Assembly (NCBI RefSeq): GCF_030246885.1
Contig: NZ_CP126739.1
Location: forward strand, 2,852,001 to 2,916,000
Source: Microbacterium sp. zg-B185
Lineage (GTDB): Bacteria; Actinomycetota; Actinomycetes; Actinomycetales; Microbacteriaceae
DNA: 64,000 bases
Reading direction: 5' to 3'
The notes below the pieces were generated by a model, which ran no database searches, was not told the origin of the DNA, and worked only from the letters and a program-made list of their open reading frames with translations. Below are positions 13,347 through 41,286 of this stretch, in pieces; the stretch's first letter is position 1, and each line of letters begins with the position of its first letter. Position numbers and translations under genes: made by a program.

Positions 13347-13475
13347 TCGAACCGCACATCCGTCATCGCAAGATGCCGAGAGTGCACTGCCGAGGGGTCG
13401 GCAGTGCAGGACCTCCCGATCTGGGGTCGGGGACGAGGCCTTCTCTTCGATGCGCACGCGGGTATGGGGCCCGCA

Positions 13476-13508: not shown

Positions 13509-13617
13509 GACGTCTATTGGCGTACCCGCGCACCGTTGGAGGTGCGCGGATGCGCAGTTTCGACGATGCACGGGTGCGTCGCCACTTCGCTCGCGCGCTC
13601 CGATCCGGGACGCGCGG

Positions 13618-18464: not shown

Positions 18465-19361
18465 TCACCATTCCAGCAGCGTGAGCTCGCTGTACAGATA
18501 GTCGATGCGCTCGGGCGGGATGGTCCTGCCGCGGAACATCTTCGCCCGCGGCGCGGCCAGGGCGGTGCCCAGCCGCGGCGCGAAGCCCAGGATCCTCGGC
18601 TCGGCCAGTGTCGCGGCCAGACCGTGCCGCAGCAGCAGATGCGACGCCACCCGCGGCCACGCCGCGCGCAGCAGCGCGCGGCTGCCGCCGACGTACAGCG
18701 GCGTCGCGAACAGCGGCAGCCGCTTGCGGCGGTCCCGGCGGAAGACGAGATAGGCGTATCCGCCCGGCGCGGTCACCACGAGGTGACGCGCCGCTGCGGC
18801 GTTCCGATGATCGCGGTAGGCCACGGCATCCACCCCGGCGAGGGTCGCCTGGAGGACGGCCGGATCGCCGGAGACCCGGATGCCGCGACCGGGCATCGCC
18901 GGCAGGTTGACGCTCAGCCGGGTCGACGTGTCGAGCCGCACGAAACCGAGCCGCTCATTGAGGGCGACGACGTTGCCGCTCGGCGAGAAATCGGTGAACA
19001 CGTCGTCCTTCTGCGCGAGCAGCGCCCGCAGCAGCCGCAGGCTGTGGGCGCGGTACTCGTCCCGCACGCAGAACGCCGCGAGATTGCAGAACCGCACCGT
19101 CGCCCGGTCTATGTCGCGTTCGGAATACACCGCCGCGTAGACGCCGACGATCTGTGCGCCGGCCCTCAGCTGGAAGCCGCTGTTCGGCGCCGCCGCACGC
19201 CACGGGGGCGACAACAGGGCGCGCCATGCCACGTGGGGCACGCGAGTGTTCAGGTGCTCGTGCAGGAACGCGGCGACGGTCTCGGCATCCGCATCGAGGA
19301 TCGGCCGCAGCTCGAGTGACGCCTTGTCCGTTCCGGCGTCGTCCGCCCGCGCGCCCTCCAT
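18465..19361 (-). CDS. GNAT-like acyltransferase of the EPS locus
   Basis: A 298-residue protein. The first 150 residues look like a GNAT acetyltransferase fold: DADAETVAAFLHEHLN, then FQLRAGAQIVGVYAAVYSE, CVRDEYRAHSLRLLRAL in place of motif A, and SPSGNVVALNERLGF. The second half is less recognisable, with two hydrophobic strands (GGYAYLVFRRD and PLYVGGSRALL). ATG at 19361 overlaps the VanZ-like stop by one base (TGATG), so they are co-transcribed. Likely modifies a sugar or glycolipid with an acyl group; substrate unknown. Resemblance to FemAB-like duplicated GNATs is possible. Confidence 0.65.
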   Translation of the reverse strand: MEGARADDAGTDKASLELRPILDADAETVAAFLHEHLNTRVPHVAWRALLSPPWRAAAPNSGFQLRAGAQIVGVYAAVYSERDIDRATVRFCNLAAFCVRDEYRAHSLRLLRALLAQKDDVFTDFSPSGNVVALNERLGFVRLDTSTRLSVNLPAMPGRGIRVSGDPAVLQATLAGVDAVAYRDHRNAAAARHLVVTAPGGYAYLVFRRDRRKRLPLFATPLYVGGSRALLRAAWPRVASHLLLRHGLAATLAEPRILGFAPRLGTALAAPRAKMFRGRTIPPERIDYLYSELTLLEW

Positions 19362-23191: not shown

Positions 23192-24499
23192 GTGACCGGA
23201 CTTCTGCTGCGCCTCCCGCAGACCAGGCCCACGACCGACTCGGTCGGATGGCTGACGCTGTATCTGGTGCTGCTGCTGTTCCTGCCCACCCGGCTGATCG
23301 TCGGACCGCTCGGAAGCGCGGGGGCTCCCTCGCTGCTGTTCGGCCTGGGCAGTCTGCTGCTCTGGCTGCTCACCTTCGTCGGCGCCGCCCGCCGGGCGGT
23401 CACCGAGCCGCAGCCCATCCGGATCGCCCTCGGCATCCTGCTGTTCTGCGTGGGGGTCACGTACGTGCTCGCCATGACGCGGCCCATCAGCGCGGACGAG
23501 GTGAGTCCTGCCGATGTCGGACTGCTCGCCCTGGCGTCGTGGTCGGGCACGCTGCTGCTCACCCACGACGGCATCCACCAGAGAAGCAGGCTCGACACCC
23601 TGATCTGGCGGTTCGCGGTGTGCGGCGGGCTTCTGGCGGCGCTCGGCCTGATCCAGATCGCCACGCGCCAGCTGTGGGTCGATCAGCTGTCGGTGCCCGG
23701 CCTCGTCAGCGGACCGTCGTACACCCTCGGCGCGCGAGGCGGCTATCCGCGGCCGCCGGGCACGGCCACCCATCCCATCGAGTACGGCGTCATCCTGTCG
23801 ATGATCCTTCCGATCGCGCTTCACGTCGGCTTCTCGCACACGCATCGCCCGCTGCTCGTGCGGTGGCTCCCCGCTGCTGCGGTCGCCGCGGTCATTCCCC
23901 TCACGTCCTCCCGCTCGGCCTACCTCGGGGCGGCCATCGCCCTGCTCGTCTGCCTGATCGGGTGGGCACCGGAACGACGACGACGGGTGGTGGCCGTGAC
24001 AGCGGCCGGTGTGCTGGCGATGGTGGTGCTCACACCCAACTTCGTCGGCTCGATCGTCGGCCTCTTCAGCGGGGCCGGCGATGACCCCAGCATCACCTCG
24101 CGCACCGACGGCTTCGCCTTCGCCGGCGACTTCATCGCCCGCGACCCCTGGTTCGGACGCGGCCTGGGCACACTGCTGCCCAAGTACCGCATCTTCGACA
24201 ACCAGTACCTCCTTCTTCTTGTGACGATCGGCATCATCGGCACGCTGGCATTCCTCGCGCTGGGGGTCACCGCCGCGGTGACGCTGTTCCGGCTCCGCGC
24301 CAGACTGCGGGCGGAATCCTCGCGCGACCTCGCGCTGGCGCTGGCCGCGGCGATCTGCGCCGGGTTCTCATGCCTGTTCATGTTCGACGCCTTCGCGTTC
24401 CCGATGACGATGGGCACCCTGTTCCTGATCCTGGGGCTGGCCGGTGCGCTGCGGCGGATAGAGGATGCCGATGCGAGCCTGGGAGCGCTGCTGAGATGA
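23192..24499 (+). CDS. O-antigen ligase/polymerase-like membrane protein (Wzy)
   Basis: A 435-residue protein with about ten to twelve membrane helices. A large extracytoplasmic loop (about 225-330) begins after LTSSRSAYLGA and contains GDDPSITSRTDGF and DPWFGRGLGTLLP, the Wzy_C-type pattern of O-antigen ligases and EPS polymerases. It would join lipid-linked repeat units outside the membrane. GTG at 23192 follows the previous stop directly (TAGGTG). The next gene overlaps by ATGA. Confidence 0.85.
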   Translation: MTGLLLRLPQTRPTTDSVGWLTLYLVLLLFLPTRLIVGPLGSAGAPSLLFGLGSLLLWLLTFVGAARRAVTEPQPIRIALGILLFCVGVTYVLAMTRPISADEVSPADVGLLALASWSGTLLLTHDGIHQRSRLDTLIWRFAVCGGLLAALGLIQIATRQLWVDQLSVPGLVSGPSYTLGARGGYPRPPGTATHPIEYGVILSMILPIALHVGFSHTHRPLLVRWLPAAAVAAVIPLTSSRSAYLGAAIALLVCLIGWAPERRRRVVAVTAAGVLAMVVLTPNFVGSIVGLFSGAGDDPSITSRTDGFAFAGDFIARDPWFGRGLGTLLPKYRIFDNQYLLLLVTIGIIGTLAFLALGVTAAVTLFRLRARLRAESSRDLALALAAAICAGFSCLFMFDAFAFPMTMGTLFLILGLAGALRRIEDADASLGALLR

Positions 24500-25404
24500 C
24501 CGACGCGTCCGTGGACGTCGCTGCCGTCGTCGTGACGTACAACAGCGAACGCCACATCGCCGACCTGCTCGACAGCATCCCCGCGGCGATGGGCGATCTG
24601 TCCTACTCGGTCGTGGTCGTGGACAACGGGTCCACCGACGGTACGCGGGAGATCCTGCAGACCCGTGCGGACTGCACGGTCGTCCTCTCCCGCAACGACG
24701 GGTACGCCGCGGGCATGAACCGGGCGGTGCGCCACTCCCCGGATGCTGCGGCGATCCTGATCCTCAACCCCGACGCCGTGCTGGATGCGGATTCGGTGCC
24801 GGTCATGTACGACGTGCTCCGCCGACCGGAAGTCGCCGTCGTGGCGCCGCGGGTTCGCGAGCAGGACGGCAGCCTGTCCCCGACGCTGCGACGCGGTCCC
24901 ACCATGGGGCGCGTCGGCGGGCTGAGCTTCACCGGCTGGCCGGTCTTCACCGAGCGCATCGAAGATCCCGAGCAGTACCAGACCGAGCACGAGGTGGAGT
25001 GGGCGGTGGGCGCGATCCTGCTGGTGGACAGCGGCCGCTACGCGACGCTGGGCGGAATGGACGAGTCGTACTTCCTGTACTCCGAGGAGACCGACTTCAG
25101 CCTCCGCGCCAAGGACGCCGGATGGGCGACGGTGTTCACCCCGGCGGCCGGCGCCATGCACGTCGGCGGCGGCTCCGGGGAGAGCGCGACGACGCACACC
25201 ATGAAGATCCTCAATCGCGTGCGACTGTACCGTCGGCGAACGGGCACGGTCCGCGCGACGGTCTATTTCTGGTTGACCGTCGCGACCGAACTGCGCCGCG
25301 CACTGCTGGGTCATGCCAAGTCCTGGCCGACGCTGCGGGCGCTGCTGAAACCCGCCGAGCGGCCGCCGCTGCTCGGGGCGAGTGACGCCCTGCTCCCCAA
25401 GTGA
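24496..25404 (+). CDS. Glycosyltransferase family 2 (rhamnosyltransferase-like)
   Basis: A 302-residue GT-A enzyme. VVVTYNSERHIADLLDSI and VVVVDNGSTDGT mark the nucleotide-binding half, NDGYAAGMNRAV and LILNPDAVLDAD (DxD-type) the donor site, and the C-terminal GGMDESYFLYSEETDFSLRAKDAG is typical of dTDP-rhamnose-using GT2 members, so rhamnosyl transfer is a reasonable guess. No membrane helix except a weak C-terminal one. ATG overlaps the wzy stop (ATGA). Confidence 0.87.
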   Translation: MTDASVDVAAVVVTYNSERHIADLLDSIPAAMGDLSYSVVVVDNGSTDGTREILQTRADCTVVLSRNDGYAAGMNRAVRHSPDAAAILILNPDAVLDADSVPVMYDVLRRPEVAVVAPRVREQDGSLSPTLRRGPTMGRVGGLSFTGWPVFTERIEDPEQYQTEHEVEWAVGAILLVDSGRYATLGGMDESYFLYSEETDFSLRAKDAGWATVFTPAAGAMHVGGGSGESATTHTMKILNRVRLYRRRTGTVRATVYFWLTVATELRRALLGHAKSWPTLRALLKPAERPPLLGASDALLPK

Positions 25405-25427: not shown

Positions 25428-26660
25428 ATGAAGGTCCTGATGATCGCACCGGCCTGCGACGGCGAGGACGTCGGAGAAGCGTGGGTCGCCTTCCAGTGGG
25501 CGCAGATGCTGTCCGACGAACACGATCTGACCCTGCTGACGACCTATAAGCGGGGCCACACGCCCTCAGCGGTGCAACTGCCCGACGTTCGGGTGATCGA
25601 GTGGCAGGAGCCACCCGGGGTCGGCCGATTCGAGCGACTGAACAGCCTGATGCAGCCCGGCTACGTCCCGTTCTATCTCCGTGCTCGCCGATGGCTCCGC
25701 CGGCGGCTGGCCGACGGCGAGCGCTTCGATATCGCCCATCAGGCCGTACCGGTCGCGATGCGCTACCCGTCGCCCGCGGCGGGTTCGGGGATTCCGCTCC
25801 TCATCGGGCCGGTGGGCGGCAGCCTGGGCTCGCCCCCGGCATTCGCCGAGGACGAGGGAACGACCCCCTGGTGGCAGCGACTGCGCGCCCTGGACGCGTG
25901 GCGCATCCGGCGTGATCCGCTGCTTCGGCGGACGTACGAGTCGGCCGCGTGCGTGATCGGCGTGGCGCCGTATGTCCAGGACTTCCTGAGCGGGCTGACC
26001 CTGCGCCGGTTCGAGATCATGAGCGAGACTGCGGTCCACACCGTCCCTCCGCCGGTGGACCGTTCCGCGCACGAAGGGTCGGTCCGGCTCCTCTACGTCG
26101 GCCGGATCGTGCGCACCAAGGGTCTGCGCGATGCGATCACGGCCCTCGGCCTGACCCGCGACCTGGATGTGGTCCTGGACGTGCTCGGGGACGGCGACGA
26201 CCGCGCGGCCTGCGAAGCCCTGGCGGTGCGGCTCGGCGTCAGTGCCAGGGTGAGGTTCCACGGCAAGGTGCCCCGCGAGGCGGTGGATGGGTTTTACGAG
26301 CGCGCCGACGTCTTCGTCTTCCCCAGCTACCGCGAACCCGGAGGCAATGTGAGTCTGGAGGCGATGGCCTACGGGCTTCCCCTCGTCGTCTGCCGCCGCG
26401 GCGGGCCCGGCGCGAACGTCGACGACGCCTGCGCGTTCCGGCTCGACGCGGACTCCCCCGCGCAGCTGGCCGCCGATGTCGCCGGCGCGATCCGCACGCT
26501 GGTCGACGAGCCCGAGCTGCGGCGCCGCATGGGGGACGCGGCGCGCGAACGCGTTGCGCGCACCCACCTGTGGGCGCACCGCCTGGAGCGGATGAACCAG
26601 CTCTACGAAGACATCGCCACGCGCGCCGTCGGGTCCGCTACCCCCGGTCCGGCGAGCTGA
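25428..26660 (+). CDS. Glycosyltransferase family 4
   Basis: A 410-residue GT-B protein with LMIAPACDGEDVGEAWVAFQWA at the N-terminus and the donor-site block RLLYVGRIVRTKGLRDAI, then ADVFVFPSYREPGGNVSLEAMAYG with the EX7E-type motif. ATG at 25428 is chosen because GAGAGGGG lies 8 nt upstream; GTG at 25401 would overlap the previous stop and cannot be excluded. Its 3' end overlaps the convergent asparagine-synthase-like gene by 23 bp, so the two operons meet here without a terminator between them. Confidence 0.88.
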   Translation: MKVLMIAPACDGEDVGEAWVAFQWAQMLSDEHDLTLLTTYKRGHTPSAVQLPDVRVIEWQEPPGVGRFERLNSLMQPGYVPFYLRARRWLRRRLADGERFDIAHQAVPVAMRYPSPAAGSGIPLLIGPVGGSLGSPPAFAEDEGTTPWWQRLRALDAWRIRRDPLLRRTYESAACVIGVAPYVQDFLSGLTLRRFEIMSETAVHTVPPPVDRSAHEGSVRLLYVGRIVRTKGLRDAITALGLTRDLDVVLDVLGDGDDRAACEALAVRLGVSARVRFHGKVPREAVDGFYERADVFVFPSYREPGGNVSLEAMAYGLPLVVCRRGGPGANVDDACAFRLDADSPAQLAADVAGAIRTLVDEPELRRRMGDAARERVARTHLWAHRLERMNQLYEDIATRAVGSATPGPAS

Positions 26661-28359
26661 CGACGACCAGGTTCGTCACGAGCGCCACCGAGCTCGGACG
26701 CGGTTCCACGCGTCCCGCGAGCACGCCCTCGACCCACTCGGCGCGCACGAAGTCCATGTCGCGGACGGGATCGAGCACCCCCGGATGCTCCCTCCAGTGT
26801 GCGACCACCTTCGCCGTCATGATCGATCCGCCCGCAGGGGGGCGGTTGCCGCGCCGCACCCGCTGCAGCGCCTTGCGTGCCGCCTTGCGGCCGGTGCGCA
26901 CGGCGTCCAGCACCGGCTGCCACCGTGCGGGGTGCGCGTACGCCGATGGCGGCGGCCTGCCGTCCAGGGGCATCGCGCCGAGCTCAGGATCCAGTTCCAT
27001 CTGCAGCGCGCCGAGGAAGCGCGCGCCCGCCTTGTCCTGGGGGCGTAGCCGCGCCGCGATATCCAGGAAGCCCGGGTCGAGCATGGGGTTGATCACCACG
27101 CGCTGATCGGACACGGCCACATCGGTGGCGCCCGCCCACCGTTGCATGCGATGCGCGACATACAGCTCGTCGGCCGCCCGGAACCACTCGTCCCCGCCGG
27201 CCCTGAGCGCCTCGTACACGGCCCGGTTCGCGGCCTCCCGCGCCCACGTGCTGAAATCGTCCGTGAGCAGGCCGGGTTCGACCGCTTCGTTCACGAACAT
27301 CCGCCAGGACGCCAGCTGCTCGGCATCCTTCCTGGTGTAGGTCCGCTCCCGCACCGGCCCGAGGTAGTAGAACCCGCGGGCGATCTCGCCGCCCAGACCC
27401 GAGATGCGCACACCCTGGTCGAAGTCGCGCTCGGCGATCCGCTGCGCGGCCAGCGCGACCGGGTCGGCCATGCCGTCGAGGCGGACGGCGTCGGCACGGC
27501 ACAGCTCCCACGCCTGGTCCGGACTGACCGCGGCCACATCGGCCAGCCCGTGCACGGAGTGGCGGATGCCGTAGCGCGCCGAGATCGCGCGGGCCAGCGC
27601 GACATCGCCGGTCCCCGGCACCTCCAGCGTCATGGCTCGCAGCCCGCGCCGCCGACGCTGCGGAATGGCGCTGAGCAGCAGCCGTGAGTCCATGCCGCCG
27701 GTGAGCTGGAGCACCGCGTCGGGGTGGTCATCCAGCAGCGCATCGAGGGATCGTCGCAGAAGCGCGGCCGCCTCGTGCACGGCGTCGTCCAGCTCGATCG
27801 GGGATGCCGCGGGCGCACGCGACGAGGTGACCACCACCCCATCGGGTCCGAGCCGGGCGATCGCGCCGGCGTCCAGCTTGCGGATGCCCTCGAAGAGCGT
27901 GCGCTGGCCCAGCTGCCAGCCGAGCAGGGACTGGACGCCCACAGCGGTCCGATCCAGCGGCGCGGACGCGGCCCCGCCCGCGCGCAGCGCGGAACTGGAG
28001 AGCACTCCGGCTCCGGCGCGCCCGGTCTCCGAGTGGAACAGATGCTGGAATCCCAGCGAGTCCGCGACCATCGTCACACCGCTCCGGTCCGCCCCGACCG
28101 CGCCGAATGGCGGCAGCAGCCGGCTGAGTGCGTGCGGATCGACCCGCATCAGCTCGGCGACGTCGCCCTCGCTCACGCGTCCCCCGGCCCGTCGCACCAC
28201 CCGCGAGACGGCCAGCACGGGGTGCGGGTCCGGCGCCGCCCGCAGTCCCCAGTGATCCAGCGCTGCCGGGCCGCAGAGGACCCGGGTCATCCCGGCCGGG
28301 GGTGGGGGAAGCGGGCGCCGGGTGGTGGCGATGAACCCGGGCAGGGCGGCGGAGCTCAT
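26638..28359 (-). CDS. Asparagine-synthase-like amidotransferase of the EPS locus
   Basis: A 573-residue protein of the asparagine synthase ATP-pyrophosphatase class. The PP-loop LTGGMDSR is at 219-226, with KxxDAGAIARL and FDQGVRISGLGGE downstream. The N-terminal 200 residues resemble a glutaminase fold, but there is no Cys at position 2, so it cannot take nitrogen from glutamine in the usual way; the amine donor would be a small amine or an amine on a carrier. It is the last gene of the 13-gene operon and overlaps the ACP gene (ATGA). Related proteins occur beside exosortase-A EPS genes in Gram-negative bacteria. Predicted role: amide-bond formation on an EPS substituent. Confidence 0.75.
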   Translation of the reverse strand: MSSAALPGFIATTRRPLPPPPAGMTRVLCGPAALDHWGLRAAPDPHPVLAVSRVVRRAGGRVSEGDVAELMRVDPHALSRLLPPFGAVGADRSGVTMVADSLGFQHLFHSETGRAGAGVLSSSALRAGGAASAPLDRTAVGVQSLLGWQLGQRTLFEGIRKLDAGAIARLGPDGVVVTSSRAPAASPIELDDAVHEAAALLRRSLDALLDDHPDAVLQLTGGMDSRLLLSAIPQRRRRGLRAMTLEVPGTGDVALARAISARYGIRHSVHGLADVAAVSPDQAWELCRADAVRLDGMADPVALAAQRIAERDFDQGVRISGLGGEIARGFYYLGPVRERTYTRKDAEQLASWRMFVNEAVEPGLLTDDFSTWAREAANRAVYEALRAGGDEWFRAADELYVAHRMQRWAGATDVAVSDQRVVINPMLDPGFLDIAARLRPQDKAGARFLGALQMELDPELGAMPLDGRPPPSAYAHPARWQPVLDAVRTGRKAARKALQRVRRGNRPPAGGSIMTAKVVAHWREHPGVLDPVRDMDFVRAEWVEGVLAGRVEPRPSSVALVTNLVVVSSPDRG

Positions 28360-28619
28360 CGCACGGCCGGCGCCAGCTTCGCCTCGACGAACCGGGTCAG
28401 CGAGCCGACGGTGTCGAACAGCTCCGCACCGAACTCGTCATCGTCGATCGTGATGTCGAAGCGCTCCTCGATCGCCGCGACGAGGGCGACGACGCCGAAT
28501 GAATCCAGCTCGGGAAGAGCGCCGAACAGCGCCGTGTCCGGCGTGAGCTCGCCCGGGTCCTGCGGCAGCTCGAGCGCGTCGACGAGGACGGTGCGGACGG
28601 CATCCAGGGTGTCGGTCAT
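28356..28619 (-). CDS. Acyl carrier protein
   Basis: An 87-residue four-helix carrier protein. The phosphopantetheine-accepting serine is S40 in ELDSFGVVAL, followed by the acidic recognition helix (EERFDITIDDDEF). Length is typical of stand-alone ACPs. ATG at 28619 has the strong RBS AAGGAGA. Immediate neighbours are the PLP decarboxylase upstream (17-bp gap) and the asparagine-synthase-like gene downstream (ATGA), so it very likely carries the substrate of these enzymes rather than fatty acids. AcpS encoded at 9834-10268 could load the pantetheine arm. Confidence 0.9.
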   Translation of the reverse strand: MTDTLDAVRTVLVDALELPQDPGELTPDTALFGALPELDSFGVVALVAAIEERFDITIDDDEFGAELFDTVGSLTRFVEAKLAPAVR

Positions 28620-28636
28620 GTCGGTCTCCTTCGGTG

Positions 28637-29863
28637 TCAGACGAGCACTTCGGCGGGGGCGGCGTGCCCCAAGAATGCGGTGGGACTGGCGGTGAGCCCG
28701 TAGGCGCCCGCCTGGAAGATCACGATGAGGTCGTCGATCGCCGCCGGCGGCAGCGGGATGTCATCGCCGAGCAGATCCAGCGGCGTGCACAGGCACCCCA
28801 CGACGGTGACCGCATCGCCGGAATCGGCCTCGACGCGGTTGCCGACCACGACCGGGTAGTTCCGCCGGATCGCCTGGCCGAAATTCCCCGAGGCGGCCAG
28901 CTGATGGTGCATCCCGCCGTCCACGACCAGGTACGTCTTGCCGCGGGAGATTTTCCGGTCCAGCACGCGGGTGACGTAGACGCCGCATTCCCCGACGAGA
29001 TAACGACCCAGTTCGATCACCGGGTTCGCCTCGGGGAACCGCTCGGCGACCGGACCGTCGATCAGCTCGTGCAGGGCCGCCGCGACCGCGTCCAGATCCA
29101 GCGGCTGGTCCTTCTCGGTGTACGGGATGCCGAAACCTCCGCCGAGGTTGAGGTAGCGGACGGGGCAGTCGAGGTGGTCGGCGAGCGTGCTGACGAGCTC
29201 GACCGTCCGGCGCTGGGCCTCCGCGATGATCGCGGCGTGCAGGTTCTGCGAGCCCGCGAAGACGTGGAAGCCGAGCACGTCGACCCCGGCGCCGGACAGG
29301 TCGCGCAGCAACGCGGGCACCTCTTCGGCGTCGATGCCGAACTGCTGCGGTCCGCCGCCCATCCGCATCCCCGAGCCCTTCACCGCGAAGTCGGGGTTGA
29401 CCCGGATGGCGATGTCCGGGGTCAGGCCCAGCTCGTCGCCGGCGGCGATGACCCGACCCAGCTCGGTCCTGGACTCGATCTCGATGAGGATGCCGGCAGC
29501 GACGGCCTGACGGATCTCGGCGGGCGTCTTTCCCGGCCCGGCGAAGCTGACGCGGTCCGGACGGATCGTGGTGTCCAGCGCCACCTGCATCTCCAGGCCG
29601 GAGGCCACGTCGATCCGGTCCACCCGCCGGGCGAGGTGCTGCACGACCGCGGGCATCGGGTTCGCCTTCATCGCATAGCTCAGCTCGATGCGCGCCGGAA
29701 GCGCCGCGCGCAGGGCCTCCACCCGCGCGTCGAGCAGGCCGCGGTCGTAGGCGAAGAACGGCGTGGACCCGACGCGACCGGCCAGCCGGCTGAGCGGCAT
29801 CCCGCCCACCTTCAGCTGTCCGTCGATCGCCCCGAACGCGGCGACGTGGTCGTGCGGGCTCAT
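28637..29863 (-). CDS. PLP-dependent (fold III) amino acid decarboxylase
   Basis: A 408-residue enzyme of the diaminopimelate/ornithine decarboxylase fold. The Schiff-base lysine is K66 in LSYAMKANPMPAV; LNLGGGFGIPY binds the phosphate; GCLCTPLDLLGDD near residue 358 holds the active-site Cys from the partner subunit; and FQAGAYGLTASP is at the C-terminus. The family includes BtrK, which decarboxylates glutamate while it is tethered to an ACP, and a decarboxylase group found with exosortase-A EPS loci. With an ACP gene next door, an ACP-bound amino acid is the likely substrate. ATG at 29863 overlaps the ligase stop (ATGA). Confidence 0.87.
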   Translation of the reverse strand: MSPHDHVAAFGAIDGQLKVGGMPLSRLAGRVGSTPFFAYDRGLLDARVEALRAALPARIELSYAMKANPMPAVVQHLARRVDRIDVASGLEMQVALDTTIRPDRVSFAGPGKTPAEIRQAVAAGILIEIESRTELGRVIAAGDELGLTPDIAIRVNPDFAVKGSGMRMGGGPQQFGIDAEEVPALLRDLSGAGVDVLGFHVFAGSQNLHAAIIAEAQRRTVELVSTLADHLDCPVRYLNLGGGFGIPYTEKDQPLDLDAVAAALHELIDGPVAERFPEANPVIELGRYLVGECGVYVTRVLDRKISRGKTYLVVDGGMHHQLAASGNFGQAIRRNYPVVVGNRVEADSGDAVTVVGCLCTPLDLLGDDIPLPPAAIDDLIVIFQAGAYGLTASPTAFLGHAAPAEVLV

Positions 29864-31419
29864 GCGGGCACCTCGGCCTTCAGGAGGGCGCGGTCGAACT
29901 TGCCGTTGGGCGAGCGGGGCAGTTCGATGCGCGCGTCGATCTGCGAGGGGACCATGTAGAAGGGCAGGAGCCGGCGCAGGGCGGCGGTCAGGGCCGGGAT
30001 ATCCAGCTCGGGCTGGGTGGGCGTGGCGATCAGGACGACACGCTGTCCCAGCGCCGGATCGGGTACCCCGACGGCGACGGCGTCCCGGACGAGACCGGTG
30101 CTGTAGGCCGCTTCCTCGACCTCGGTCGGGCTGACCCGGTAGCCCGAGGTCTTGATCATGTCGTCGGCGCGTCCGACGAAGTAGAGGAAGCCGTCCTCGT
30201 CCGCCACGACCGTGTCCCCCGACCACACCGCCATCTCGGGTGCGCGCCACTCCTGATCGGGATGGTGCACGGGGCGGAACCGCTCGGCGGTGCGCACCGG
30301 GTCGTTCCAGTAGCCCAGGGTCACCAGCGCTCCGCGGTGCACCAGCTCCCCCGGCTCGCCCGGACCGCAGCGCGTGCCGTCGGGCCGGAGCACCAGGACC
30401 TCGGCGTTCGGGATGGCCTTGCCGATCGAGTCGGGCCGCCGATCCACTTCGGCCGGATCCAGGTAGGTGGAGCGGAACGCCTCGGTCAGGCCGTACATCA
30501 GGTACGGCGCGGCCTGCGGGAACGTGTCGCGGAGCCGGTCCAGCGTGGCGCGCGGCATCCGTCCCCCGGTGTTGGCGAAGTAGCGGAGGCGTTCGGCGGC
30601 CGCCTCCGGCCAGGGAACCTCCGCGATCTGCAGCCAGAGCGGGGGAACCGCGGTGATCCCGGTCACGCCATGCCGTGCGCAGAGCTTGGGCACATCGCGC
30701 GGGACGAGGTAGTTCATCAGGACGACGTGCGCGCCGACCGAGAACGCCGTGGTGACCTGGCTCAGCCCGGCGTCGAAGCTGAGCGGCAGCGCGCTCAGGA
30801 TCACGTCGTCCGGCGTGTTCTGAAGGTACGTGCTCACGCTCTCCGCCCCGGCCAGCAGGTTGCGGTGGCTGAGCACGACCCCCTTCGGTCTGCCGGTGCT
30901 GCCCGAGGTGTACAGGATCGCGGCGGGGTCGATGTCGAGGACAGCCGGCTCGATCAGTTCCTGGGCGACGGCGGTGCGCCAGGGGTGCACCGCCGCGTCG
31001 ATCGCGGGCTCGACGACGTCACCGACGACGATCAGATGCTCGACCGCGGTGTGCGGCAGCACGTCGGCGAGCGCACCGAGACGATCCGCCGAGGTGACCA
31101 GGACCCGCGCTCCGCTGTCGCCCAGAATGTGGCCGACCTGGGCGGATTTGAGCACGTGGTTGACGGGGACGAACACCCCGCCGGCGGCGGATGCCGCGAA
31201 CAGTGCCACGACGGTCTCGATCCGCTTCTCCAGGTACACCGCGACGCGGTCCTCGCGCACCAGGCCCAGTTCGCGCAGATGCGCGGCGACCGAGGCGACC
31301 GCCCGCCACGTGTCGGCGTAGGTGACGGTCTCGCCCTTGTACGTGAGAGCCGGCGCGTCCGGGCTCGCCTCGGCGGCCCGCGCGAGCAGGTGGTGGACGT
31401 TCGTGCGGATCGCGGTCAC
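29860..31419 (-). CDS. AMP-forming acyl-CoA/acyl-ACP ligase
   Basis: A 519-residue ANL-superfamily enzyme. The phosphate loop ILYTSGSTGRPKGVV (about 166-180), the YGLTEAFRS motif, and the C-terminal VGRADDMIKTSGYRVSP and PRSPNGKFDR (catalytic lysine in the last) are intact. It should activate a carboxylic acid as acyl-AMP and load it onto CoA or the ACP encoded two genes downstream. The family resembles the acyl-CoA ligase found with exosortase-A EPS loci. Start ATG at 31419 overlaps the stop of the upstream glycosyltransferase (ATGA). Substrate unknown; an amino or hydroxy acid is inferred from the neighbouring decarboxylase. Confidence 0.87.
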   Translation of the reverse strand: MTAIRTNVHHLLARAAEASPDAPALTYKGETVTYADTWRAVASVAAHLRELGLVREDRVAVYLEKRIETVVALFAASAAGGVFVPVNHVLKSAQVGHILGDSGARVLVTSADRLGALADVLPHTAVEHLIVVGDVVEPAIDAAVHPWRTAVAQELIEPAVLDIDPAAILYTSGSTGRPKGVVLSHRNLLAGAESVSTYLQNTPDDVILSALPLSFDAGLSQVTTAFSVGAHVVLMNYLVPRDVPKLCARHGVTGITAVPPLWLQIAEVPWPEAAAERLRYFANTGGRMPRATLDRLRDTFPQAAPYLMYGLTEAFRSTYLDPAEVDRRPDSIGKAIPNAEVLVLRPDGTRCGPGEPGELVHRGALVTLGYWNDPVRTAERFRPVHHPDQEWRAPEMAVWSGDTVVADEDGFLYFVGRADDMIKTSGYRVSPTEVEEAAYSTGLVRDAVAVGVPDPALGQRVVLIATPTQPELDIPALTAALRRLLPFYMVPSQIDARIELPRSPNGKFDRALLKAEVPA

Positions 31420-32627
31420 TGTCCGTACACCTCGTCCTCGATGATGCGGGTGACCGCGTCACGGGTGGGCTGCCACGATCGCCCGATCACCGACGCGGCA
31501 GCGGCGGCGGCGTTCGCGTCGATGTCGGCGGCGGTGACGGCCGCGCTGAGCGCCGCCGCGAGACCGTCGGCGGTGGGCTCGGCCCACCGCACGTGCGGGT
31601 TGGGCAGCACGAGGTGCGCGAGGGGCATGTCGTTGACGACCGGGATGTTGCCGGCGGCGAGCATCTCCTCGGCCACCAGCGTGATGTTCGTGAACGACAT
31701 CGCCAGCCCTGTGACCGTGCGACCGTACAGCTCGTTCAGTTCGCCGGTGGTGAGGCGGCCGTGGAACGAGTGCGGCACCTGCAGCCCCCGAGGCGGCGCC
31801 CCGTAGACGTGGATCGGCTGGTCCGGGTGCAGCCGGTGGAACCGGGTCAGTGCCACCCGGGCGAGCTGGTAGCCGCGACGTGCGTAGTCGGGGCGGGAGT
31901 AGAACACGACCCCGCGGCGGTGCGGCTGCGGCGTCGGCGGCCGGTAGGCCGCCGAATCGCAGCCGAACGGGACGACGTCCGTGGCCAGCCCGGTGTGCTG
32001 GCGGATCATTCCCTCCAGCATCTCGCCCAGCGCGATGAGCCGGAACGGAAGCCGGTAGGTCATCGCCGCGAACTCGTACTCGGCGCCGTGCCCGTAGAAG
32101 TGCGGCTCGTAGTCCTGGATGAAGTACAGCCGGCGCATCGGAGTTTGCCCGTACGCGACGATCAGGTGGGCGGACTCCCACCCCGACGCGACCACGGCAT
32201 CCAGGGCGCGGATGCCGGCGCGGACGTCTCGGACCTCCGCGCGCACCGTCGGCCAGTGCTCGCGCACGACAGCGTCCAGGGCGGCAGCGTCCAGACCGTG
32301 ACGGTCGTAGAAGTACAGGACGCACCGGTGACCGCGGGCTTCCAGCGCCTCCACCATCCGGAACAGCGTCGTGTGTCCGCCGGAGCCCGGCGCCGGTGCC
32401 GTCGAGACCCACCCGATCGTCAACGGCCGCCCGCGGTGCGGCCGGGTGGCCGGAACCGCCAGGTCCTCGGGGACGCTGCCCAGGATGTCCTCGTCCGCGA
32501 TCTGGAAGAACAGGTCCGCCGCGCCGGTGGCCCGGTAGACGCGCCACGCGATCCGCTGCGCGACGCCGCGGACACCGACGTCGCGGGCGCGGCCCGCTCG
32601 GGCGAGCACCGCGGTCACCCTGCGCAT
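31416..32627 (-). CDS. Glycosyltransferase family 4, WsaF/rhamnosyltransferase-like
   Basis: A 403-residue GT-B protein. IGWVSTAPAPGSGGHTTLFRM opens the N-terminal half, and VVFYSRPDYARRGYQLA with the C-terminal GLAMSFTNITLVAEEMLAAGNIPVV form the donor half; both are typical of the WsaF group that adds rhamnose. Cytoplasmic. Gap of 36 bp to the upstream GT2; overlap with the ligase downstream (ATGA). Confidence 0.85.
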   Translation of the reverse strand: MRRVTAVLARAGRARDVGVRGVAQRIAWRVYRATGAADLFFQIADEDILGSVPEDLAVPATRPHRGRPLTIGWVSTAPAPGSGGHTTLFRMVEALEARGHRCVLYFYDRHGLDAAALDAVVREHWPTVRAEVRDVRAGIRALDAVVASGWESAHLIVAYGQTPMRRLYFIQDYEPHFYGHGAEYEFAAMTYRLPFRLIALGEMLEGMIRQHTGLATDVVPFGCDSAAYRPPTPQPHRRGVVFYSRPDYARRGYQLARVALTRFHRLHPDQPIHVYGAPPRGLQVPHSFHGRLTTGELNELYGRTVTGLAMSFTNITLVAEEMLAAGNIPVVNDMPLAHLVLPNPHVRWAEPTADGLAAALSAAVTAADIDANAAAAAASVIGRSWQPTRDAVTRIIEDEVYGQ

Positions 32628-32663
32628 GGCCCGCGGCTCTCGGAGGCACGGATGCCGATCGGC

Positions 32664-33842
32664 TCACACACCGGACACCACCCAGCGGGCGTAGTACAGC
32701 CGCTGACGGATGCGGCGGGCTGCGCGGCGGGCCAGGGCCGCGGGGCGCGCCGCCCGGGCTCCGCGCTGGATGCGCCGGAAGCGTGCCCACTCGCTCGAGG
32801 GCGGCCACACGTCGGCGGCGAAATCCAGGAGCGCCGCGTACTCGGCGCGCGGGTGACCGCGGTCCACCGCCGCCGACGCGAACCGCAGCGCATCCTCGGC
32901 CAGAGCGCGGCGGGCCCGGTCCCGGAGGCTCGCCGCCTGCGGGATGCGCGCCCCGACCCGCTCGAACACGCTGGCGAAGGCGCCCGCCCGGGCGACCAGG
33001 TCCACCAGCGTGCCGGAACCGTCGTTCGCGCTCATGCTCGCGTCGTGCTCCCGGTGCAGCGCCTGGTCGGCGCCGCCGACCCATCCGACGTCGCTGACCG
33101 CCGCGACGCGCATCGCGATCTCCATGTCCGGCGCGTACGGCAGCGCCGGGTTCATCGGACCCACCTCCGCCAGCACCGCGGAGCGCAGGACCATCTCCGG
33201 GTTGGTGATCGCACTCACCCCGAGCCGGCAGCGCTCGGCCAGCCAGTCCCGGCCCGACCAGATCGTCCACCCCACCTCGTGCAGGCGCGTGGCAGGCGGG
33301 TGCGCGCCGGCGAAGTGCCGCGGGTGGCCGTAGACCAGACCGACGCGGGGATGCGCCTCGAACAGGGCGGTGGCACGGGCCAGGGCCCCGGCGGCGAGCA
33401 GGTCATCGGCATCCAGCTTCACGACGTAGTCGCCGGACGCGACCTCGCAGCCGGCGTTGAAGGCGCGGACATGCCCGCCGTTCTCCGGCCGGACCAGGAC
33501 CCGCACGTTCGGGTGCGTCGCCGCGAGACGGCGGGCGACGTGGACGCTGTCGTCGGTGGAGACGTCGTCGACGATGATCACCTCGACATCGACCGCCTGC
33601 TGCGCGACCGCGCTGCCGACGGCATCCGGCAGATACCCGGCGTAGTTGTAGCACGGGATCACGACCGAGACCAGCGGCCGCTCCCGCGGGGTGAGCCGGG
33701 GTGCGCGCACCCGCAGGAGCGGTCTCGGCTGGGCCGGGGTCGCGCGCGCCAGCACGCGCAGCGCACGCCCGGACAGCGCGTGCGTCTCGGCGTAGTCCTC
33801 CCACACCGCCGGGGCCGCGGTCGCGGCGGTCTCACGAAGCAT
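32664..33842 (-). CDS. Glycosyltransferase family 2
   Basis: A 392-residue GT-A enzyme with VSVVIPCYNYAGYLPDAV and VIIVDDVSTDDS, the acceptor-side NAGCEVASGDYVVKLDADD (DxD metal site), and a C-terminal arginine-rich amphipathic tail that may bind the membrane. It overlaps the 3' end of the flippase gene by 11 bp. It is similar in plan to the GT2 on the other side of the flippase (35299-36348), so the two may be an old duplication. Confidence 0.87.
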   Translation of the reverse strand: MLRETAATAAPAVWEDYAETHALSGRALRVLARATPAQPRPLLRVRAPRLTPRERPLVSVVIPCYNYAGYLPDAVGSAVAQQAVDVEVIIVDDVSTDDSVHVARRLAATHPNVRVLVRPENGGHVRAFNAGCEVASGDYVVKLDADDLLAAGALARATALFEAHPRVGLVYGHPRHFAGAHPPATRLHEVGWTIWSGRDWLAERCRLGVSAITNPEMVLRSAVLAEVGPMNPALPYAPDMEIAMRVAAVSDVGWVGGADQALHREHDASMSANDGSGTLVDLVARAGAFASVFERVGARIPQAASLRDRARRALAEDALRFASAAVDRGHPRAEYAALLDFAADVWPPSSEWARFRRIQRGARAARPAALARRAARRIRQRLYYARWVVSGV

Positions 33843-35277
33843 CTGCCACCTCCGTGCGGCGCTGGCCGCGGATCGCGCGTGCGTGGGCGCGCAGCCACGG
33901 CCAGCCCACCAGCAGGTACACCACGACCGCGCCGAGGCCGCCGACCAGGACGGCGAACACCGGGTCGCTCAGGAACACGCGGGCCGCGATCGCGACACCG
34001 ACCGCCGGGACGGCGGCGACGGTCGGCCACCATGCCGCGCGCAGGACCGTGGTGAATCGCACCCCGGCTGCTCGCAGCGCGATCGCGTAGGCGGGCAGGA
34101 TCACCACGACGGCCACGACCACGTGCACCCAGCCGGCGCCGATGATCCCGAAGGCCCGCGTCGCGAAGATCATGCCCACCACCAGGACGACCAGCCACAC
34201 GATCTGCACCCACAGCACCGGGCGGGACAGACCCCGGGCGTAGAGGAAGCCCGCGAAGATGTCGAACACGACGCGGAGACTTCCGTACAGCCCGAGGGCG
34301 GCCAGGACGGGCGCGGCCGGAAGCCACTTCGGGCCGTAGACGACCTCGATCAGCGGCGCGCTCAGCGCGGCCAGGACGGCGCCGGCGGGCAGAGCTCCCG
34401 CCCAGGCGACCGCCACGACGGACGAGAGACCTTCGCTTCCGCTGCCCGTGCGCGAGAAGTACGGCAGGGAGATGGATCGCACCACCTGCGACAGCGCGCT
34501 CATCGGCCAGCTGGAGATGTTGAACGCGAGCACGTAGTAGCCCAGGGCGGTCACCCCGGCCACCCGCGCCAGCACGATGTTGTCGACGTTCAGCAGCGCC
34601 CAGGACAGCAGATTCGCCGCGGCGATCGGCAGGCCGAACGCGAGCACGGGCCCCACGACCGACCGGTTCACGCCGAACCGCGGCACGACGCGCGCGAGGA
34701 GGAACTGCATGAGCGTGGACACGCACTGGGCCGCGACCCGTCCGATCGCAAGGCCCAACGGCCCCAGACCGATCGCGACCAGGGCGAGGGTCACCGTCGT
34801 GGAGACGACGAAGTCGGCCACCCCGACGTAGAAGAGCTCGCGCTGCTGGAATCGGCGCTGCAGCATCGCGTAGGGCACCACGGTCGCCCCGGCCAGGACG
34901 AGCGTGATGGACAGCACCGCGATGGTCGGGGCCGCCGCAGGCGAGCCGAGGAGCTCGGCGATCACGCCGCTGGAGGCCAGCGTGATCGCGGTCATGACAG
35001 CACCGCTGGTGAGGCCCAGCGTGGCGACGGTCGGCGCGATGCGCTCCGGGTCATCGGTGCGGATGAGATCGGCCGACAGACCCAGATCGGCCACCGTGAT
35101 CAGGATCGCCTGCACGGTGAGCGCGACCGCGTAGACGCCGAACTCCTCGGGGCTGAGCAGCCGGGCGAGGATGATGCCGACGACGAGACCGCCGAGGCGG
35201 AGCACGATCGTGCTCACCCCGCTCCAGGCCGCTCCGCGTGTCGCCTGCGCACGCAGCGACGCGCCGTTCACGCTCAT
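33832..35277 (-). CDS. Polysaccharide flippase (Wzx)
   Basis: A 481-residue MATE/MVF-type transporter with about 12-14 membrane helices. The N-terminus RGAAWSGVSTIVLRLGGLVVGIILARLLSPEEFGVYA is the family signature, and YYVLAFNISSWPM and SLPYFSR are conserved loops. It flips the lipid-linked repeat unit to the outside for Wzy. ATG at 35277 is well placed, 21 bp after the upstream GT2 stop. Confidence 0.92.
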   Translation of the reverse strand: MSVNGASLRAQATRGAAWSGVSTIVLRLGGLVVGIILARLLSPEEFGVYAVALTVQAILITVADLGLSADLIRTDDPERIAPTVATLGLTSGAVMTAITLASSGVIAELLGSPAAAPTIAVLSITLVLAGATVVPYAMLQRRFQQRELFYVGVADFVVSTTVTLALVAIGLGPLGLAIGRVAAQCVSTLMQFLLARVVPRFGVNRSVVGPVLAFGLPIAAANLLSWALLNVDNIVLARVAGVTALGYYVLAFNISSWPMSALSQVVRSISLPYFSRTGSGSEGLSSVVAVAWAGALPAGAVLAALSAPLIEVVYGPKWLPAAPVLAALGLYGSLRVVFDIFAGFLYARGLSRPVLWVQIVWLVVLVVGMIFATRAFGIIGAGWVHVVVAVVVILPAYAIALRAAGVRFTTVLRAAWWPTVAAVPAVGVAIAARVFLSDPVFAVLVGGLGAVVVYLLVGWPWLRAHARAIRGQRRTEVADAS

Positions 35278-35298
35278 CGGATGCCCATCGTCGTGGCC

Positions 35299-36348
35299 TC
35301 AGAGACCGACTTCGAGGTGCCGACGGGAGCGGATCTTCCACCGCAGATTCTCCACGGAGCCGACCAGGCGGGCCGGCGCACCGTCCTGCGCGGTCAGTTC
35401 CGCCCACCGCCACACCGCAGACCGGACGATCTCGGGGGCGGTCGCGCGGGCGAAGTCCTGCATCTGCACCAGCACCTCGGTGGGGGCCCCGTCCGCGGTC
35501 AGCAGCGCCCCCCGCAGCAGGGCTTCGCGGGCCACCGACCGCTTCGCCGTGCGGATCAGACCGGGCGCGCGCCGGATCACCGCGCCGTCGTGGGCGAAGA
35601 ACCGCTCGTACACGCCGAGGACCTGCGCCATGTCATCCAGCAGCCCGCCGTGTTCGGTGGAGTGCATGTTCTGGCCGTGATCGCGGTAGTACGCCTGGCG
35701 CGGCCCGGCCACGAACCCGACGTCGCTGACGGCCGCGGCCTGCAGCCACATGTACATGTCCGCGGAGTGCGGGAAGTCCGGGTTATAGCCGCCGGTGGCC
35801 TCGTACACCGAGCGGCGCAGCACCGCTTCGGGGTTGACCACCGCATTGCGTCCGCGGCGCACGAGCCGCGCGGTCCACTCGTCACCGCCCCACACCTGCC
35901 ACCATCCGCGACCGCCGCGGGCGGCGGGGAGCTCTCCGTGGAACCACTCCACCCCGCCGTAGACGAGCCCGACCCGCGGGTGCGCCTCCATCAGCGCCAC
36001 CGACCGGGTCAGCGAGTTCGGGGTGAGTGCGTCGTCGGCCGAGAGGAGGACGACGTAGTCCCCGGAGGCTCGCGAGAGCCCGTCGTTGTAGGTGCGGATG
36101 TGCCGCATGTTCTGCTCGTGCTCCACCAGCGTGACGCGCTCGTCGGCGGACGCGATGCGGCGTGCCGCTTCCGTGCTGCCGTCGGTGGACCGGTCATCGA
36201 CGATGATGACCTCGACGTCCAGGCCGCGCTGGTCGAGGGCGGAGCCCACCGCGGTCGGCAGGTACTGGCCGTAGTTGAAGTGCGGGATGACGACGGTCAC
36301 GGTGGGGCGTCGTCGCATCGGCATCGGGCGATACACGCGCATGGTCAC
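35299..36348 (-). CDS. Glycosyltransferase family 2
   Basis: A 349-residue GT-A enzyme: VTVVIPHFNYGQYLPTAV, VIIVDDRSTDGSTE, SGDYVVLLSADDALTP (DxD-like metal site), and TGGYNPDFPHSADMYMWL. GTG at 36348 overlaps the aminotransferase stop (GTGA); an in-frame ATG at 36342, two codons later, is an alternative. Part of the 13-gene minus-strand operon, between the aminotransferase and Wzx. Confidence 0.87.
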   Translation of the reverse strand: MTMRVYRPMPMRRRPTVTVVIPHFNYGQYLPTAVGSALDQRGLDVEVIIVDDRSTDGSTEAARRIASADERVTLVEHEQNMRHIRTYNDGLSRASGDYVVLLSADDALTPNSLTRSVALMEAHPRVGLVYGGVEWFHGELPAARGGRGWWQVWGGDEWTARLVRRGRNAVVNPEAVLRRSVYEATGGYNPDFPHSADMYMWLQAAAVSDVGFVAGPRQAYYRDHGQNMHSTEHGGLLDDMAQVLGVYERFFAHDGAVIRRAPGLIRTAKRSVAREALLRGALLTADGAPTEVLVQMQDFARATAPEIVRSAVWRWAELTAQDGAPARLVGSVENLRWKIRSRRHLEVGL

Positions 36349-37460
36349 ACCAGCTCCCGGGCCACGGCGCGCACCAGCGCGTCCGCGACCCGCTCCTGCT
36401 GCGCCCCGGTCAGGTGCGGGAACATCGGCAGCGACAGGATGCGGCCCGCCGCAGCCTCCGCGACCGGGAACTGCCCGCGGCGGTGGCCGAGCGGCGCATA
36501 CGCGTCGGTCAGGGGCACCGGGGTCGGATAGTGGATGCCGGTGCCGATGCCCGCCGCGCCCAGCTCCGCCACGACGCGGTCGCGGTCCTCCACGCGCACC
36601 ACGTACAGGTGCCAGACGTCCGTGTTCCCCGGCCGGACCGCGGGAATCCGCACCTCGCTGTCCCGCAGCAGCTGCGCGTACCGTTCGGCAGCGACCCGGC
36701 GGGCCTGGTTCCACCCCTCCAGCCGGCGCAGCTTCGCGCGCAGCACCGCCGCCTGCACGGCATCCAGGCGCGCGTTGACCCCCACATGGGTGTGCACGTA
36801 TTTGGTCGCACTGCCGTGGCCGGCGAGGGTGCGCACGAGCGCCGCGACGTCGGGGTCATCGGTCAGGACAGCGCCCGCGTCGCCGGCCGCACCGAGGTTC
36901 TTGCCGGGGTAGAAGCTGGTCGCCGCCACGCGCGACAGTGCGCCGGCGCGGCCGGCCGCGCACGACGCACCCTGCGACTGGGCGGCGTCCTCGATCAGCA
37001 CCAGGTCGTGGCCCTGCGCGATCGGCAGCAGAAGATCCATCGGTGCGGTCTGCCCGAACAGGTGCACGGGGACGATCGCACGGGTGCGTGCCGTGATCGC
37101 GGCCTCGACGGCGTCGGGATCCATCAGGAGGTGCTCGTCGTCGACGTCGACGAAGACCGGCACGGCGCCGATGCGGGATGCCGCCTCGGCGGTGGCGATG
37201 AACGTGTTGGCGGGCATGATCACCTCGTCGCCCGGCCCCACGCCGGCCGCGCGGTAGGCGAGCTCGAGCGCGTCGGTGCCGTTGGAGACACCGACGACGT
37301 GCGTCACGCCGACGTAGTCCGCGAACTCCCGCTCGAAGGCGTCCACTTCGGCCCCGCCGATGAAGCCGGCGGACTCGAGCTGCGCGCGCCACACCGGCAA
37401 CACCTCGTCGACGATCTCGGCCTGCTGCGCGGCCAGATCCAGGAACGGGACGCCGGTCAT
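36345..37460 (-). CDS. DegT/DnrJ/EryC1-type sugar aminotransferase (1)
   Basis: A 371-residue PLP enzyme that aminates a keto sugar nucleotide. FLDLAAQQAEI starts the fold, GVSNGTDALELAYRAAGVGPGDEV binds the cofactor phosphate, LIEDAAQSQGA carries the PLP-stacking Asp, and the Schiff-base Lys is in SFYPGKNLGAAGD. ATGA overlap with the acetyltransferase gene upstream suggests they act one after the other (amination, then N-acylation), as in PglE/PglD or WbpE/WbpD pairs. Confidence 0.92.
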   Translation of the reverse strand: MTGVPFLDLAAQQAEIVDEVLPVWRAQLESAGFIGGAEVDAFEREFADYVGVTHVVGVSNGTDALELAYRAAGVGPGDEVIMPANTFIATAEAASRIGAVPVFVDVDDEHLLMDPDAVEAAITARTRAIVPVHLFGQTAPMDLLLPIAQGHDLVLIEDAAQSQGASCAAGRAGALSRVAATSFYPGKNLGAAGDAGAVLTDDPDVAALVRTLAGHGSATKYVHTHVGVNARLDAVQAAVLRAKLRRLEGWNQARRVAAERYAQLLRDSEVRIPAVRPGNTDVWHLYVVRVEDRDRVVAELGAAGIGTGIHYPTPVPLTDAYAPLGHRRGQFPVAEAAAGRILSLPMFPHLTGAQQERVADALVRAVARELV

Positions 37461-38083
37461 CGCGCCTCCTCCAGCCGGCGGGCCGGCACGCCGGCCCAGA
37501 TCTGATCGGACGGGACGTCCTCCAGCACGGCGGCGCCCATGCCGACCGTCGCGGCGGCGCCGATCTGCACGCCCTGGCGGATGGACGCGTTCATCCCCAG
37601 GTAGGCCGCTTCGCGGATGCACACGGATCCGCCGAGTGCGACGCCCGCGGCGAGGGTCGCGAAGTCCTCCACGACGTTGTCGTGCGCGATCGTGCAGTTG
37701 GGCATCACGACGACATGGCGCCCGAGGACCGCATCGGCGGTGACCACCGCGCCGTCCAGCACGATGCTGCCGGCCCCGACGGCGCTGCTGGCGCCGATCC
37801 GCGCCGAGCGCGCCACATAGGTGGCGAAGCGCTGCTCGGGCACCCCGAACTTCCGCAGCCGGCGCACCACCGTGCGGCGGCTCACGCTCGGCCCGATGCA
37901 CACCAGCAGCATCTCGTCCCGCCGCGTCGCATCGCCGGTCAGTCCGATCACCGGGACGCCGGCGATCTCGGTGCCCTGCAACTCGAGGTTGTCGTCCAGG
38001 ATGCCGGTGACCCCGACGATCCCGGCGGCCAGGACCTCGCGCGCCAGCCCGCTCGCCCCCACCAGCAGCACTCCCTCACTCAC
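37457..38083 (-). CDS. PglD/NeuD-like sugar O- or N-acyltransferase
   Basis: A 208-residue protein with an N-terminal sugar-nucleotide-binding alpha/beta domain (LLVGASGLAREVL) and a C-terminal left-handed beta-helix of hexapeptide repeats (VVMPNCTIAHDNVVEDFATLA, with the catalytic His in TIAHDN). It probably uses acetyl-CoA to acylate the amino sugar made by the adjacent aminotransferase. GTG at 38083 gives an 8-bp overlap with the upstream aminotransferase gene. Confidence 0.88.
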   Translation of the reverse strand: MSEGVLLVGASGLAREVLAAGIVGVTGILDDNLELQGTEIAGVPVIGLTGDATRRDEMLLVCIGPSVSRRTVVRRLRKFGVPEQRFATYVARSARIGASSAVGAGSIVLDGAVVTADAVLGRHVVVMPNCTIAHDNVVEDFATLAAGVALGGSVCIREAAYLGMNASIRQGVQIGAAATVGMGAAVLEDVPSDQIWAGVPARRLEEAR

Positions 38084-41262: not shown

Positions 41263-41286
41263 CCTGTGGTCCACGATGTCCCCGAC

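Follow-up and report, generated by a model that had tools for sequence, protein, structure and literature searches.

In the starter-unit pathways of vicenistatin, fluvirucin and bolagladin, an acidic amino acid is loaded on an acyl carrier protein (ACP) and is then alpha-decarboxylated while bound to it, according to the sections of PMC11284099 and PMC7756342 dealing with them. For vicenistatin, PMC11284099 describes in its pertinent part that VinN loads 3-methylaspartate on VinL and that VinO decarboxylates it there, yielding 3-aminoisobutyryl-ACP. In a different setting, the Caulobacter holdfast, HfsK has been proposed to transfer an acyl group to the amines that HfsH lays bare, and the relevant passages of PMC5362036 leave the nature of this group open. 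Here we analyse a group of genes within an exopolysaccharide (EPS) cluster of Microbacterium sp. zg-B185 (GCF_030246885.1, contig NZ_CP126739.1, positions 2,852,001-2,916,000 of the forward strand; genome of 3.57 Mb in one contig). All coordinates refer to this stretch of 64,000 nucleotides, which will be referred to as the window. On balance, we read the group as a polysaccharide-decoration pathway, which would convert an acidic amino acid into an aminoacyl-ACP and pass the aminoacyl group to a sugar amine. The genes in question are as follows:

29860..31419, minus strand, adenosine monophosphate (AMP)-forming ligase, 519 amino acids (TIGR03098, 735.0 bits, curated cut-off 592.35)
28637..29863, minus strand, fold-III pyridoxal phosphate (PLP) decarboxylase, 408 amino acids (TIGR03099, 559.7 bits, curated cut-off 478.45)
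28356..28619, minus strand, stand-alone ACP, 87 amino acids, phosphopantetheine site Ser40 in LPELDS (PF00550, 38.2 bits, cut-off 20.8)
26638..28359, minus strand, asparagine-synthase-like protein, 573 amino acids, without the glutaminase Cys2, accessory (PF00733, 21.0 bits, equal to the cut-off of 21.0)
18465..19361, minus strand, tandem-GNAT protein, proposed N-acyltransferase, start approximate (tblastn, 66% identity to the GNAT protein of the related locus L040)
17798..18451, plus strand, NodB-family polysaccharide deacetylase with a proposed GTG start, frame open from 17624 (PF01522, 61.8 bits over 17624-18451, cut-off 23.1)
16881..17801, plus strand, GT2 glycosyltransferase overlapping the deacetylase frame, its relatives adjoining the GNAT gene in most loci (PF00535, 72.2 bits)
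24370..25404, plus strand, second GT2 glycosyltransferase (PF00535, 66.5 bits)

The four genes at 26638-31419 had been described in a first-pass annotation as overlapping or abutting, and their coordinates agree with this. The ligase and decarboxylase genes overlap by ATGA, as do the end of the ACP gene and the start of the asparagine-synthase-like gene, and the codon-position GC of all four follows the pattern of real genes in a high-GC genome. A search with the pocket segment of the ligase ranked 3wv4 (86.8 bits) and 3wvn (86.3 bits) first among solved structures, the next family following at 62.6 bits. We take these two entries, named "Non-ribosomal peptide synthetase" in the PDB, to be VinN, which fits with their residue numbering, as subtraction of 16 from the chain numbers places the aligned residues exactly at Asp230, Ser299 and Arg331. 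These are named as VinN residues in the corresponding part of PMC7756342. In the ligase they are represented by Asp216, Thr284 and Arg316, thus a VinN-type pocket is present in which Asp and Arg are identical and Ser is replaced by Thr. In an alignment containing one best ligase per locus, 32 of 33 sequences have the pocket Asp and 30 have the Arg; the three without Arg are remote ANL enzymes with 24-28% identity. When the whole ligase was used as query, rows of two-domain gramicidin synthase and one other peptide synthetase outranked VinN. We predict that the ligase activates an acidic amino acid by adenylation at its side-chain carboxyl and loads it on the ACP.

The solved structures closest to the decarboxylase are those of BtrK (7ru7, 242.8 bits; 2j66, 242.1 bits), whereas the best diaminopimelate decarboxylase reached 146.6 bits; among solved structures the enzyme is thus of the BtrK type, as had been proposed. 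The stretches MGG.P.QFG.D, G.QNL and R.NYP are common to both proteins. G.QNL and R.NYP are kept in all 22 aligned rows, and MGG.P.QFG.D deviates in four of the loci (G239, G176, G275 and L025). The decarboxylase is therefore predicted to act on an ACP-bound amino acid. The identification of Ser40 as the phosphopantetheine site of the ACP was confirmed by the PF00550 score and by the serine of the DS motif, which aligns in 27 out of 27 rows. Because the ligase pocket is VinN-like and the decarboxylase BtrK-like, and given the VinN/VinO precedent, a beta- or gamma-aminoacyl-ACP appears to be the best reading of the product, consistent with the amine-bearing acyl-ACP suggested initially.

The model of the GNAT protein (predicted local distance difference test, pLDDT, 86.2) consists of two domains with the GNAT fold. 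In the deacetylase, the Asp-Asp (SFDDGN) and His-His (GSHGWSH; HG..H) stretches of the PF01522 family are present and kept in its relatives, and a weak match to HfsH was obtained (32.5 bits, cut-off 400). The proposed start precedes the first conserved block by a few residues and no signal peptide is seen by eye, so the enzyme is probably cytosolic.

To what extent these genes belong together was evaluated by their distribution. Of 394 genomes of the class, 14 contain a TIGR03098 ligase over the cut-off, as do six of 249 of the family, the genome of strain zg-B185 being counted in both. Within the same 394 genomes, the ligase and the GNAT protein were each found in 14 and both together in 13 (Fisher, 2.7e-22), the window included, and the four genera with GNAT are all among the five with ligase, out of 137 genera (3.6e-7). 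Twenty actinobacterial loci were compared, namely the window and 19 others, of which G519 was read over 20 kb of a 40.6-kb contig and G275 over 19 kb. Decarboxylase and ACP genes are present in all 20, the ligase gene in 19, GNAT and deacetylase genes in 18 each and the asparagine-synthase-like gene in 10. Ligase and decarboxylase genes are adjacent on one strand in all 20 loci possessing both (19 actinobacterial and one of Sinorhizobium meliloti), and the ACP gene lies within 175 bp of the decarboxylase gene in 19 of these; in G275 it is located on the opposite side of the ligase gene. This arrangement argues against a chance association. The deacetylase gene accompanies the GNAT gene in the window and in 17 out of 17 fetched loci with GNAT, and the GNAT gene is at most 1.1 kb from the deacetylase gene or its partner GT2 gene in 15 of 19 loci with GNAT, S. 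meliloti included. GNAT and polysaccharide deacetylase are thus more constant partners of the module than the asparagine-synthase-like gene; they lie beyond the interval treated in the first-pass annotation, which does not mention them. The idea that GNAT is a stand-in for the asparagine-synthase-like gene was dropped after homologue searches, in which both turned up on contigs of equal length, GNAT being found in 13 of the 14 ligase-positive genomes, that of the window among them.

The most compact arrangement was found in S. meliloti 4H41 (positions 4470-10154 of locus L117), where GNAT, ligase, decarboxylase, ACP, GT2 and deacetylase genes stand in a row in one direction. The GT2 protein encoded between ACP and deacetylase is 34% identical to the second GT2 of the window. 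Ligase and decarboxylase share approximately 65% identity with their counterparts in the window, suggesting that the set was passed between phyla as a unit. Transposase- or integrase-like open reading frames, recognized by eye, are located beside the six-gene run.

Only two loci, the partially read G519 and G275, lack both GNAT and deacetylase. In the 19 kb of G275 none of the other EPS proteins of the window was matched, and GNAT was not found genome-wide. Its ACP, ligase and decarboxylase genes (L050, 5353-11432) have as neighbours the gene for a condensation-domain protein of the stand-alone type and a stretch with 25% identity to it; here, a use in natural-product synthesis is possible. 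In G176, a different ANL ligase (L108, 12031-13464; AA-adenyl-dom, 101 bits, below the cut-off, not TIGR03098) follows GNAT, decarboxylase and ACP, and the loader seems to have been exchanged.

The gene set had been compared beforehand with sets known beside EPS genes of the exosortase A (XrtA) type; ligase and decarboxylase indeed belong to families associated with exosortase A, as both exceed the respective TIGR03098 and TIGR03099 cut-offs. The same did not hold for the third family expected: the asparagine-synthase-like protein scores 18.8 bits with the XrtA amidotransferase profile TIGR03108 (cut-off 816.9), and this assignment was rejected. In agreement with the earlier remark that no exosortase is seen, PF09721 yielded no match in the whole genome. 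Among gammaproteobacteria, 34 of 274 genomes searched carry a TIGR03098 ligase, and 28 of the 34 were read in stretches of 8-22 kb, several contigs being short. These 28 ligase loci contain a decarboxylase gene in 24 cases, an ACP gene in 13, a deacetylase gene in seven and a FemAB-like gene in four, and the GNAT family of the window in none of the stretches read. One of them, Alishewanella jeotgali (L025), was the source of the deacetylase and FemAB queries. Its ACP, ligase and decarboxylase genes are accompanied by PrsK and PrsT, and a gene for a deacetylase of the PF01522 family comes directly after that of the decarboxylase; a DegT-type enzyme and a PF13480 protein are encoded 5-7 kb further, past an IS66 transposase. 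As judged from these comparisons, the ligase-decarboxylase half, and only that half, is clearly shared with the gammaproteobacterial XrtA-type loci. With no exosortase in the genome, an asparagine-synthase-like protein outside TIGR03108 and a GNAT family not found in the 28 loci, the system of the window as a whole is not an XrtA/PEP-CTERM system.

From family membership, conservation of pocket and motifs, and genomic co-occurrence we infer every reaction, substrate and acceptor of the following pathway as well as the order of its steps. First, an acidic amino acid would be adenylated at its side-chain carboxyl by the ligase and handed to the phosphopantetheine at Ser40 of the ACP. The BtrK/VinO-type decarboxylase would then remove the alpha-carboxyl on the ACP, giving beta-alanyl-S-ACP (or 4-aminobutyryl-S-ACP). 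The NodB-family deacetylase might unmask the amine of a hexosamine (glucosamine) on the growing repeat unit laid down by GT2, and the tandem GNAT protein could move the aminoacyl group from the ACP to this sugar amine, so that an acyl arm would carry the free amine outwards. In the half of the loci that includes the window, the asparagine-synthase-like enzyme would add a further amide, in the simplest case between an ATP-activated carboxylate and the new amine; that it caps this amine is a guess.

Such a path to N-(aminoacyl)glucosamine is coherent in that it joins a known logic of deacetylation and N-acylation to VinN/VinO/VinL chemistry. In rhizobial Nod factor synthesis (NodB/NodA/NodF), glucosamine is deacetylated and then N-acylated from an ACP with a fatty acyl group. 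The module thus may work like VinN/VinO/VinL and, less surely, like NodB/NodA, the latter likeness being one of logic, with a fatty acyl group there and a proposed aminoacyl group here. As far as the vicenistatin, fluvirucin and bolagladin systems are described (VinN-VinO-VinL, FlvN, BolO-BolN-BolC), they share with the window an ANL ligase with a matching pocket, a BtrK-like decarboxylase and a stand-alone ACP, but feed polyketide or peptide assembly lines, whereas here the neighbours are EPS, deacetylase and GNAT genes. The BtrI/BtrJ/BtrK system of butirosin likewise has an ACP-bound substrate and the decarboxylase closest to that of the window; it differs in its ligase, BtrJ being an ATP-grasp ligase and the enzyme of the window an ANL ligase, and in the setting, which here is an EPS cluster. 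With the holdfast proteins HfsH and HfsK the window has in common a polysaccharide deacetylase and a tandem-GNAT protein; the likeness to HfsK is one of domain make-up and proposed logic. More specifically, but only tentatively, we propose a cross-phylum EPS modification in which beta-alanyl (or 4-aminobutyryl) groups are N-linked by the tandem GNAT protein to deacetylase-unmasked glucosamine, placing positive charges on flexible arms, and whose first half would supply the function still lacking for the XrtA/PEP-CTERM ligase and decarboxylase.

The presence of an EPS operon, as initially described, was substantiated by genes for a sugar-phosphate transferase, a flippase, a polymerase-type protein and glycosyltransferases in the surroundings of the module:

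13087..15198, plus strand, initiating sugar-phosphate transferase of the EPS cluster (PF02397, 222.3 bits)
within 31416..41274, minus strand, EPS genes upstream of the ligase gene: WsaF-like glycosyltransferase, GT2, flippase and GT2
within 31416..41274, minus strand, EPS genes of the same block: two DegT-type aminotransferases, NeuD-type acetyltransferase, short-chain dehydrogenase/reductase and Gfo/Idh oxidoreductase

A gene for a Wzy-type protein also belongs to the cluster, and the Gfo/Idh enzyme shows a match below the cut-off to UDP-GlcNAc 3-dehydrogenase, amino-sugar genes being part of the cluster. Dependence of the acceptor on the DegT, NeuD and Gfo genes was considered and rejected, as G113 and G059 have no clear copies in the stretches read, the genomes not being searched elsewhere. 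Also inside the cluster, a DUF4082 surface protein is encoded at 20007-21596 (PF13313, 136.1 bits); it has relatives in most related loci, in some of them right behind the asparagine-synthase-like gene. A conserved protein without Pfam or NCBIfam match is encoded at 22415-23191, directly before the Wzy-type gene, and is kept in most related loci. Just beyond the cluster lies a gene for a PF00485-family kinase (42252-43505), pantothenate-kinase-like by eye and probably housekeeping, and at 44721-47300 a DUF4062 protein with weak AAA/NB-ARC and TPR matches is encoded, which could be an ATPase of the STAND type and makes the gene a candidate for a role in defence.

Several observations weigh against the proposed decoration of a sugar amine with an aminoacyl group. 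The position of VinN Phe231 is Ala here and in the actinobacterial ligases and Tyr in L025-L034; because of this Ala the loaded acid is uncertain, L-aspartate being more likely and L-glutamate possible, two substrates which this analysis does not tell apart. In NCBIfam, the ACP matches AmcB, a protein of cispentacin synthesis, best (47.7 bits, below the cut-off of 80), and the ligase partnering AmcB is annotated as loading 2-oxoglutarate. To our knowledge, no activity has been reported for any member of the module. The fold neighbours listed for the GNAT protein use acetyl- or acyl-CoA. It has no NCBIfam match and no Pfam match at E 0.1, including to PF13480, which we take to be the HfsK/FemAB-like N-acyltransferase family, and a profile search of the PDB gave no match either, so that no sequence match connects it with a known acyl-ACP-dependent enzyme. 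Its gene is more than 2 kb from both deacetylase and GT2 genes in G239, G328 and G176, 4 kb from the deacetylase gene in S. meliloti and about 9 kb from the ACP gene in the window. The low numbers of ACP, deacetylase and FemAB-like genes in the gammaproteobacterial loci and the absence of GNAT from the stretches read there point in the same direction. Finally, for HfsK, on which the GNAT step is modelled, no phenotype was seen in Hirschia, and hfsK is located outside the hfs locus, as stated in the passages of PMC8449245 concerned with it.

The fold neighbours of the GNAT protein, among them the glucosamine N-acetyltransferase 5kf1, would also be compatible with N-acetylation of the aminoacyl-ACP at its amine, or with renewed acetylation of the sugar, by this protein, the transfer being left to another enzyme. 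Protection of a new amine is known from vicenistatin, where it involves VinM according to the part of PMC11284099 on this step. We nevertheless regard this explanation as unlikely, since the minimal loci, G113, G059 and L117, contain a clear relative of just one acyl-group transferase among the EPS proteins of the window, namely GNAT (other acyltransferase families were not sought there), and since its adjacency to deacetylase and GT2 fits a sugar acceptor.

Somewhat less probable still is that the asparagine-synthase-like enzyme is the principal transferase, as assumed in the first-pass annotation, joining the ACP-borne amine to a uronic acid or another carboxylate of the EPS. Its gene overlaps the end of the ACP gene and lies less than 300 bp from it on the same strand in all 10 loci having it (nine of the 19 others and the window), and the amino-sugar genes of the cluster, including the Gfo/Idh enzyme, would be in keeping with such a role. 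The absence of Cys2 was correctly recognized: the protein starts with MSS, and Cys as second residue is missing in 37 out of 37 aligned rows, which does not agree with a glutamine-hydrolysing asparagine synthase. The PP-loop LTGG.DS is invariant in the same rows, and the predicted fold (pLDDT 87.0) matches TsnB9, carbapenam synthetase, beta-lactam synthetase and AsnB, thus resembling beta-lactam synthetase in having an AsnB fold with intact PP-loop and without Cys2. A sequence search of the PDB gave a single spurious match, and in a profile search AsnB and carbapenam synthetase appeared only at E 0.0016 and 0.0029. A protein of Microbacterium sp. zg.B48 shares 98% identity with it. Judging from the model, it is likely an ATP-dependent amide synthetase using a substrate amine as nucleophile. 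However, the gene was not found in 10 of the 20 actinobacterial loci, in eight of 14 whole genomes searched or in S. meliloti, where 20 kb of the contig were covered, and the enzyme alone would not free the product from the ACP thioester. With the gene found in only 10 of the 20 loci, a role as main transferase is hardly conceivable, and we consider the enzyme accessory.

Very improbable is another reading, in which a common fatty, keto or hydroxy acyl group would be bound to the ACP, and diaminopimelate or lysine in free form would be the substrate of the decarboxylase: the ANL and fold-III families are broad, the lysA profile TIGR01048 scores the decarboxylase with 230.9 bits (cut-off 297.9) and AmcB is the best match of the ACP, but the decarboxylase has BtrK-type motifs where those of diaminopimelate decarboxylase would be, the genome contains, besides its one TIGR03099 match over the cut-off, a second, weaker one of 153.8 bits that is presumably LysA, and the ligase has the pocket residues Asp216 and Arg316.

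Searches of the open-licence PMC literature gave no description of the module; it may be in print elsewhere. The NCBIfam names of TIGR03098 and TIGR03099 state only enzyme class and gene context (hypoth_equivalog), with no reaction assigned, and the pocket and BtrK evidence provides both families with a specific reaction that can be tested. If GNAT and deacetylase complete the decoration pathway as proposed, starter chemistry of the antibiotic type would be used to charge an extracellular polysaccharide. If true, this would also give a hint at the kind of acyl group that may be used by a GNAT protein such as HfsK.

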